A stretch of DNA of 64,000 nt from Veillonellaceae bacterium (GTDB taxonomy: Bacteria; Bacillota; Negativicutes; Veillonellales; Negativicoccaceae), in the NCBI GenBank assembly GCA_022771805.1, contig JALELM010000010.1, positions 1-64,000 on the forward strand, read 5' to 3'. The notes under the pieces are model-generated. The model did not search any database and was not told where the DNA came from. It saw only the letters and a program-made list of their open reading frames with translations. Both the position numbers and the translations under genes were made by a program. Positions within the stretch are counted from its first letter, which is position 1. Every line of letters begins with the position of its first letter. Shown in pieces: positions 44,982 to 58,558 of the stretch.

Positions 44982-44990
44982 CTAAAGTAA

Positions 44991-45106
44991 CGGTGCGGGG
45001 GAACCATTGCGGTTGAGAAGGCACGGGCCTGACCCTTTGAACCTGTAGGTTAAGACCTGCGTAGGGAGCACGCCCCCTTTGGGGTGCAGACTGCGCGCGA
45101 GGGGGA
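44991..45106 (+). promoter_or_regulatory. TPP (THI-box) riboswitch with translational expression platform
   Basis: The aptamer shows the conserved TPP elements GGTTGAGA (45011-45018), CCTGACCCTTTGAACCTG and GCGTAGGGAG (45059-45068). P1 is GTGC (44993-44996) with GCAC (45068-45071). Downstream, CCCCC (45073-45077) can pair either with GGGG at 45081-45084, as part of a hairpin that also captures GCAC, or with the Shine-Dalgarno GGGGGAG at 45101-45107. This predicts translational control of thiT. Confidence 0.9.
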
Positions 45107-56726: not shown

Positions 56727-57313
56727 AACAAAGACCCCTGGGTGAACCCCGCTTCACTGAGAAATGTTTGTAGCGGTGTCTTGCAGGCGGCAAATAACTG
56801 CTCGCAATCCGCTATTTGCTTGGCGCTTGCCGCGGCCAGCACGATTTTGCCGCAGGCGACGGCATCTTCGTCCGCACGATGATGCCGGAAGGTATGACCG
56901 AGGAACCGACCGATATTGTTCAAGGCATACGAGGGCAAATCCGGCCACACGACACGGGCAAGCGGCAAGGTATCGCCGTAGCGGAAAGCGGGGTGCGTGA
57001 GCCCGTAATAGGTCAGCGTCGCCCGCAGTACGTCCGTGTCAAAGGGCGCGTTATGGGCGACCAGCGGCAGGCCGGCGGTAAAGAAAGGCAGAAACTTCGC
57101 CCAAACGCCGGAAAAATCCGGTTTATCCGCAACGTCCGCATGACGGATCTGATGGACGCGAATATTCTCATCATCAAACAGCATCCCGGGCGGCTGAAAT
57201 ATTTCCGCCATCGAGGCGACGACTTCCTCGCCGCGAAAATGGGCAACCGCCAAGGCGCAAGCCGAGTGCGGCTCCTGCGTTGCGGTTTCAAAATCAAAAG
57301 CGATAAACTCCAT
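56723..57313 (-). CDS. DEDDh 3'-5' exonuclease (DnaQ-like)
   Basis: The 196-residue protein has the three exonuclease motifs: FDFETA (Exo I), HNAPFDTDVL (Exo II) and HHRADEDAVA (Exo III with the DEDDh histidine). It resembles stand-alone epsilon/PolC-like proofreading exonucleases. It is coupled to ogt by overlap, which suggests a joint DNA-repair role. An extended -10 box (TGCTATAAT) lies about 35 bases upstream on the reverse strand at 57356-57348. Confidence 0.88.
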   Translation of the reverse strand: MEFIAFDFETATQEPHSACALAVAHFRGEEVVASMAEIFQPPGMLFDDENIRVHQIRHADVADKPDFSGVWAKFLPFFTAGLPLVAHNAPFDTDVLRATLTYYGLTHPAFRYGDTLPLARVVWPDLPSYALNNIGRFLGHTFRHHRADEDAVACGKIVLAAASAKQIADCEQLFAACKTPLQTFLSEAGFTQGSLF

Positions 57314-57394
57314 GATATCTCCTTATTATGTGCATTCTTCTGCCGTCATTATAGCACAAGGCGAGACTACGCCGTATAGGTAACTGTGACATAG

Positions 57395-57507
57395 AAAAAG
57401 CGCTCAGCATGCTAGCAAGCTTAGTAGTAATTCTTCAAGGAATAGTAAGCTTAGTAGGTTGGCTGAAGCGCAAATAGAGAGTAGGGGGCAACGCCCCCGA
57501 AATCTCT
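57395..57507 (-). ncRNA. Candidate structured small RNA, about 113 nt
   Basis: The 318-base gap 57314-57631 has no protein gene. On the reverse strand an extended -10 box TGGTATAAT (57522-57514) precedes a compact structured region. The 5' hairpin is AGAGA-n-GGGGGC-GTT-GCCCCC-n-TCTCT (57507-57476). A middle section holds two 15-base direct repeats. A closing stem GCGCTTCAGC/GCTGAGCGC (57471-57462 with 57408-57400) follows, then five T (57399-57395), terminator-like. I cannot assign it to a known RNA family. Confidence 0.45.
57413..57457. repeat. Two 15-base direct repeats within the candidate RNA
   Basis: TAGcAAGCTTAGTAG (57413-57427) and TAGtAAGCTTAGTAG (57443-57457) differ at one base and recur with a 30-base period. 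Each is centred on AAGCTT. Between them ATTC/GAAT can form a small hairpin. Confidence 0.75.
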
Positions 57508-57631
57508 GTCACTATTATACCACGACTATGAAAAAATGGGGACTGCTATCTTTTGTGATACAATGAAAGCGAACCCGTCGAAAAAATTCGAAATAGAATG
57601 GTAGGAGAAACAGACGGGAGAGGAGAGGGTT

Positions 57632-58558
57632 ATCATCGAACTCAAAAAATTCAACATTGAAGATAAGGCCGTTTTGGCACCTTTTTTTGCGGAGCATCAC
57701 TACGAACAGTCGGAATGTGCGTTCGGCACGCTGTTTCTTTGGCAGGATGCCTTCAATCTGGCTTGGGCGGTGGAAGACGATGTGCTGTTCATTCGAGCGG
57801 GGCGTTACGGACATGAGTTCCTGTTGCCGCCCTTTGCCGGTGAAAACAGTACCTTTGTGCACGGTCTGGACTTGGCGGAGGAATGGTTTGCCGACGAGGG
57901 GCTGCCGTTTTTGCTGAAGGGCGCGTCTCCTTGGGTGGTCGCCCGTATGCAGGAGCTTTGTCCGACCTGCTATACGTACACGAAGGATCGGGATAATTTT
58001 GAATACATCTATCGGACATCGGATTTAATCGACTTGCCGGGGAAAGCGTTTCGCCAGAAGAAAAACCATGTGAATGCGTTTCGGCGCAGTTATGCTGGCT
58101 ACGAATACATCGATCTCGGGCCGGAGCACAAAGAGGAATGCCTGGAGGTTGCCCGGCGCTGGCTGGAAGAGCACCAGACCACGGCGGACATGGAACAGGA
58201 GCAGCGGGGAATTGCCCGCGCCTTTGATTACTGGCGGGAACTCGGCATGAAAGGCGGCGCCATTCGGTTGTACGGCAGCATTATTGCGTTTTCGGTCGGT
58301 GAATACCTGAATCCGGAGATGGCGGTGCTGCATTTCGAGAAAGCGGATCCGACCATCCGGGGAAGCTACCAGATCATCAATCAGGAATTTGCCCGCCGTG
58401 CCTGGGCGGACACGAAGTATATCAATCGGGAAGAAGACATGGGAATTCCGGGTTTGCGCCAGGCGAAGGAAAGCTACAATCCCGATCATTTTGCCGAGAA
58501 ATATGACATTCGGTTGGTGGATGAAGATTGTGATTGCGAAGAGGAGGCCGAGGCATGA
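57632..58558 (+). CDS. DUF2156 protein with apparent non-canonical ATC start
   Basis: The protein of about 308 residues has the two GNAT-like folds of DUF2156 (the MprF/LysX C-terminal type), with GTLFLWQDAFN near 35, KKNHVNAFRRSY near 142 and HFEKADPTIRGSYQIINQEF near 240. No ATG, GTG or TTG lies in frame between the upstream TAG (57602) and TTG 57674. A strong GGAGAGGAGAGGG site (57617-57629) points at ATC ATC (57632-57637), giving an N-terminus IELKKFNIEDKAVL that fits the family. TTG 57674 is the fallback start. The stop overlaps the next gene (ATGA). Confidence 0.75.
   Translation: MIELKKFNIEDKAVLAPFFAEHHYEQSECAFGTLFLWQDAFNLAWAVEDDVLFIRAGRYGHEFLLPPFAGENSTFVHGLDLAEEWFADEGLPFLLKGASPWVVARMQELCPTCYTYTKDRDNFEYIYRTSDLIDLPGKAFRQKKNHVNAFRRSYAGYEYIDLGPEHKEECLEVARRWLEEHQTTADMEQEQRGIARAFDYWRELGMKGGAIRLYGSIIAFSVGEYLNPEMAVLHFEKADPTIRGSYQIINQEFARRAWADTKYINREEDMGIPGLRQAKESYNPDHFAEKYDIRLVDEDCDCEEEAEA

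Follow-up and report, generated by a model that had tools for sequence, protein, structure and literature searches.

The window (the whole 64,000-nucleotide stretch analysed, from contig JALELM010000010.1 of a Veillonellaceae bacterium) probably carries an orphan antitoxin gene, the antisense half of a prophage type I toxin-antitoxin-like module, a reading to which we assign a probability of about three in four on the basis of sequence comparison and modelled RNA pairing. An initial annotation had described the region as a candidate undescribed structured small RNA in a protein-free gap. This interpretation is partly supported: the structure, extended -10 and intrinsic terminator on the reverse strand were recovered, whereas neither the free-standing character of the RNA nor the absence of protein-coding sequence held. 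The element comprises the following features.

57386-57550, reverse strand: putative orphan antitoxin unit (165 bp), the block that matches the prophage copy in the alignment with contig G000:C7 and that the related genome G001 lacks at the corresponding gene pair; it extends from around position -43 of the antisense promoter to a point slightly beyond its terminator
57514-57522, reverse strand: extended -10 of the antisense RNA, TGGTATAAT, with no difference in the prophage copy; across the loci, the reverse extended -10 reaches a score of 10-11 out of 11 in 16 of 18
57395-57507, reverse strand: predicted antitoxin-like antisense RNA of 113 nt, with a fold z of -4.8 and homologous folds
57476-57507, reverse strand: 5' hairpin domain, GGGGGC/GCCCCC with outer AGAGA/TCTCT; the stem is the same in the prophage copy
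57395-57471, reverse strand: intrinsic terminator hairpin and T-run, the arms complementary to the C-terminal and N-terminal codons of the peptide
57409-57477, forward strand: remnant of a hydrophobic peptide gene, MLASLVVILQGIVSLVGWLKRK, 22 codons; the conserved frame continues upstream to 57382
57528-57566, forward strand: truncated initial part of the second small membrane peptide of the module, MKKWGLLSFVIQ and then a stop; the prophage copy reads MKKWGMLSVLMLIINVLNGFRWVSLVALAVAVLVFGVKIYEKNNT

On the reverse strand, the extended -10 at 57522-57514 precedes a predicted RNA running from 57507 to 57395. The inner hairpin GGGGGC-GTT-GCCCCC lies at 57498-57484, and the outer AGAGA/TCTCT pairs join 57507-57503 with 57480-57476. 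The closing stem is formed by GCGCTTCAGC (57471-57462) and GCTGAGCGC (57408-57400), followed by TTTTT at 57399-57395. Apart from the outer pairs, these elements and the transcript length of about 113 nt had been noted initially and are present as described. The predicted fold has an energy of -40.8 kcal/mol, compared to a shuffle mean of -25.1, and none of 200 dinucleotide shuffles was as stable. A plain sigma-70 scan of the region returned no promoter, because a -35 match is absent for the antisense RNA. The earlier impression that the RNA belongs to no known family also stands, as Rfam searches at gathering and relaxed thresholds gave chance matches only. Elsewhere the window carries a TPP riboswitch (44987-45084, forward strand; Rfam RF00059, 58.5 bits).

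A DNA search of the genome itself (1.44 Mb, 20 contigs) revealed one paralogue, with 84% identity over 140 bases, in G000:C7. This 41.9-kb temperate-phage contig has terminase, head-tail connector, tail fibre, holin, endolysin, ERF and repressor-like genes, and at its far end a frame resembling, as judged by eye, the N-terminus of a tyrosine integrase. As this frame is cut at the end of C7, the prophage appears to be split at the contig end. The module sits at the opposite end, after the lysis genes and beside an excisionase-like gene (PHROG 2655). Here the peptide gene is complete, with a TTGACT-17-TATAAT promoter, the Shine-Dalgarno sequence AGGAGGTG (in AAAGGAGGTGA) and a GTG start, and it encodes the 32-residue peptide MNSDIEKALSALASLVVIIQAIIDLVQWLKRK. 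The stop codon is followed by a GC hairpin and then by an extended -10 pointing back. The contig (loci L034, L035 and L092) also encodes a 3023-residue internal protein and has a frame for a Fic-like protein (L092 213-1382, by eye).

Comparison of the two copies revealed that the window frame is 77% identical to the C7 peptide. In frame, they differ at 22 of 93 sites, 12 of which are third positions, giving a dS of 0.97, a dN of 0.17 and a dN/dS of about 0.17. Only seven amino acids are changed, compared to 14.4 under random placement, and one in 5000 trials gave a number as low. These mostly synonymous differences indicate that the forward strand is the coding strand and that the RNA described initially is antisense to it. 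The coding constraint suggested by the dN/dS is accompanied by the promoter and Shine-Dalgarno sequence of the intact loci. Thus, the supposed protein-free gap carries a conserved small hydrophobic frame.

The RNA structure is also under constraint. When synonymous codons were redrawn with the peptide fixed, the antisense RNA was strongly destabilised in 13 of 16 loci, no more than 6 of 400 draws matching its stability, and L079, L053 and L054 showed no excess structure. The sense strand is about equally over-structured (mean z of -2.6 vs -2.9 for the antisense strand), so that the assignment of the structure to the antisense RNA comes from the promoter and T-run and not from the codon-redraw test. 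Covariance in related sequences had been put forward at the outset as a check, and compensatory changes indeed occur at 7 of the 22 predicted pairs among five group-A sequences; the homologous regions thus show paired changes but have not kept the repeats noted in the window. Moreover, one arm of the terminator is complementary to the N-terminal (IEKAL-type) codons of the peptide and the other to its C-terminal (LK-type) codons, which indicates that the peptide ends and the terminator evolve under joint constraint.

To survey homologues, a profile of the first peptides was run against 380 genomes of the class and the matches were then inspected, yielding 18 distinct loci with this layout, 15 of which look intact. 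All but one belong to the class of the window or to viral contigs (17/18), the remaining locus (L090) coming from another class of the phylum. A refined profile matched at E 0.01 or better in 16 of the 380 genomes, a few of the matches being decayed or uninspected. One of the genomes with a match is Veillonella sp. KGMB01456. Loci dropped on inspection (L036, L039-L046 except L043, L062-L064, L068, L070, L076, L080 and L091) encoded longer proteins, matched in the wrong frame or lacked the layout. As the homologues were found via the peptide, only the promoters, hairpin and terminator count as independent evidence. A Shine-Dalgarno sequence is present in all 15 intact loci and TTGACN stands 17 nt from a -10 in 13 of them. 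In module loci the GC-rich 5' hairpin of the antisense RNA lies 3' of the stop codon, followed by the reverse extended -10, which in the homologues has a mean score of 10.2 out of 11 vs 7.7 in shuffles and is weak in L048 and L057 (9/11). By prediction, the antisense RNA has its own promoter and terminator and is complementary to the toxin mRNA.

The peptides of the intact loci have 25-39 residues, a 17-residue hydropathy of 1.4-2.6 and a net charge of -1 to +3, and are thus small (<60 residues) and hydrophobic with a charged end; they are 10-37% identical to the prophage peptide, the window copy excepted. In nearly every intact module, the toxin-like peptide is followed by an unrelated-looking second small membrane peptide of 25-51 residues, without a confident match in PHROGs, beyond which there is usually an HTH/excisionase-like or WGGAREGAGRP-type protein. 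In the prophage, this second peptide is located as follows.

L034 283-417, complement: second membrane peptide, also found downstream in L047, L059, L061, L090, L099 and L102

In the window, the toxin side of the module has decayed. The upstream part of the frame, to 57382, reads NCDIEKALS and has no start codon, Shine-Dalgarno sequence or promoter, and the sole ATG of the frame (57409) is not preceded by a ribosome site. Only 12 codons of the downstream peptide are left. The copy has therefore lost the promoter, Shine-Dalgarno sequence and start of the toxin and kept the antisense RNA and its promoter. Two further loci, L055 (genome G062) and L089 (genome G008), likewise lack the -35, Shine-Dalgarno sequence and start and retain the antisense promoter and terminator, and an intact version of the module is found in L099, which bears the same genus label as the L089 genome. 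The window copy, L055 and L089 thus each look like an antitoxin-only locus, with the antitoxin promoter and RNA apparently intact and the toxin signals lost. Since the loci were found via peptide codons, the retention of these codons in the orphans follows from the way of searching, whereas that of the antisense promoter does not. In G062, a transposase-like gene adjoins the orphan copy (L055 1900-2600), and an insertion may have broken that module. The gene to the right of the element in the window (57629-57680, forward strand, for its beginning) is a homologue of a 323-residue protein in L084; it has no ATG, GTG or TTG where the homologue starts, and its first listed start is TTG at 57674.

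A dead fossil, in which the promoter and hairpin have simply not yet had time to decay and the RNA has no function left, is the alternative that survives best, and we regard it as a serious possibility at clearly less than even odds. The window copy is a 165-bp fragment without the toxin start and with the downstream peptide gone, and the expected order of decay is loss of the toxin first and of the antitoxin later. A further decayed copy, L101 (genome G054), also fits: it has kept the peptide start, and its ribosome site, C-terminus and antisense promoter are lost. However, the block retained in the window coincides with the antisense gene, reaching from around -43 to slightly beyond the terminator. 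Its promoter and 5' stem show no change, compared to differences at 22 of 93 sites in the peptide part. Moreover, the two other orphans keep the same half.

It is also conceivable, yet improbable, that the peptide is a holin-like or antiholin-like partner of phage lysis or membrane proteins, that the antisense RNA times its expression and that the window copy is a relic of the lysis region. The C7 module comes after the holin, endolysin and a spanin-like gene and before the second membrane peptide and the excisionase-like protein, and the peptides are of membrane type. Nevertheless, the C7 peptide has its own promoter and Shine-Dalgarno sequence behind the terminator of the lysis genes, and the constitutive-looking antisense promoter suits silencing in a lysogen. 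Furthermore, type I modules are well known in the prophages of Firmicutes, where they are standard addiction genes (PMC6563280, PMC7699646).

The initial proposal of a small RNA acting in trans through exposed CTACTAAGCTT repeats would fit a structured RNA with promoter and terminator, but is very unlikely, as the predicted fold pairs one copy with the other and as the repeats correspond to S-L-V codons on the opposite strand, which is under coding constraint, and are absent from the prophage copy. The 30-base spacing of these repeats was reported correctly, whereas the exact repeat is 11 bases long instead of 15. Two other candidates were rejected: a leader or riboswitch of the gene at 57313, which has its own TGCTATAAT at 57356-57348, past the terminator, and a small mobile element, of which the genome would hold just two copies.

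We therefore return to the orphan antitoxin and propose how the intact module might work. The promoter and strong Shine-Dalgarno sequence would drive a hydrophobic peptide of 25-39 residues, usually with basic residues at the end. From the downstream extended -10, an RNA of about 110-140 nt would be transcribed back through nearly the whole peptide frame, stopping at a terminator inside the first codons of the peptide. This presumably constitutive RNA would pair with the peptide mRNA, leading to a stop of translation and/or decay of the mRNA. As the RNA ends in the first codons, short of the ribosome site, the duplex would more likely be cleaved, or obstruct the initiating ribosome, than mask the site. 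Silencing would prevent synthesis of the putatively membrane-active, toxic peptide, to which a cell that lost the prophage would be exposed. The orphan copy may in turn serve as an anti-addiction RNA, or it may be a relic. When modelled, the duplex of the window RNA and the C7 mRNA reaches -175 kcal/mol, whereas shuffled RNA gives -57, and it includes 23 perfectly complementary nt. The window RNA could therefore pair with the peptide mRNA from the prophage in this genome and may act across copies, although the apical loops of the 5' hairpins differ (GTT in the window vs AGT in the prophage).

Among known systems, the module resembles Ibs/Sib of E. coli in its very short hydrophobic peptide, whose frame there lies wholly inside the antisense RNA (PMC4147584, PMC8309996). 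However, Sib also covers the ibs ribosome site (PMC4147584), whereas the present antisense RNA stops within the first codons, its T-run lying opposite them and downstream of the Shine-Dalgarno sequence. Moreover, the present module is prophage-borne with a second small membrane peptide next to it, and Ibs (Pfam) and Sib (Rfam) gave no sequence match. The C. difficile prophage modules CD0977.1-RCd11, CD0904.1 and CD0956.3 encode hydrophobic peptides of 34-47 residues with a basic tail and an AGGAGG site; they have an antisense RNA and are proposed to stabilise the prophages in which they reside, and RCd12 acts on a non-cognate toxin (PMC7699646). Their layout is convergent, compared to the nested layout here. 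TxpA/RatA and BsrG/SR4 of Bacillus subtilis are likewise type I modules of prophages that encode small membrane toxins, but the overlap of RatA with txpA is confined to the 3' end of the latter (PMC4147584), and the present peptides have no Pfam match. Fst/Ldr (par of pAD1) shares a short single-helix peptide with a charged C-terminus, whereas none of the 16 aligned peptides has its defining motif APxxxGxxx (PMC8309996), and there is again no Pfam match. The E. coli orz-only loci are similar in having an antitoxin RNA gene without a toxin, with orz expressed (PMC11264685); orz belongs to an unrelated family, and in the window the toxin start region is gone but most codons remain.

No family in Rfam, Pfam, NCBIfam, PHROG or PADLOC was above cut-off for the peptides or RNA of the module, and a sub-threshold match of the 22-residue frame to melittin was rejected as an effect of composition. 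Searching 50,697 phage records by tblastn with four family peptides, which are very short queries, gave no match. DNA similarity searches found nothing in phages, a single promoter-like match of 36 bases in plasmids (E 0.1), and in 60 relatives only chance matches outside the genome itself. Exact DNA patterns had no match in IMG/VR, and subgroup peptide patterns retrieved one locus each from IMG/VR and genome_contigs, both already known. In the open-access literature searched, type I toxin-antitoxin modules of Negativicutes are not described. In the absence of a family match, of the Fst motif and of such a description, the modules appear to be a new family of a known kind, best read as type I toxin-antitoxin modules of prophages that have not been described before. 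A broader proposal, which we consider rather doubtful, is that this family is widespread in Negativicutes and at least one other class, with the antitoxin inside the toxin gene, and that hosts have repeatedly kept antitoxin halves as anti-addiction or superinfection-immunity RNAs.

If confirmed, the modules would add a family that is missed by gene callers, owing to peptides of 25-39 residues, and by Rfam and Pfam. They would also provide a clear case of double constraint, in which the codons of a peptide double as the terminator of an RNA. The orphan antitoxin in the window would be unusually clear, the only prior orphan type I case found in the literature being orz of E. coli (PMC11264685). 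Altogether, the putative orphan RNA antitoxin lies in the same genome as its intact cognate module, which makes the anti-addiction idea directly testable.
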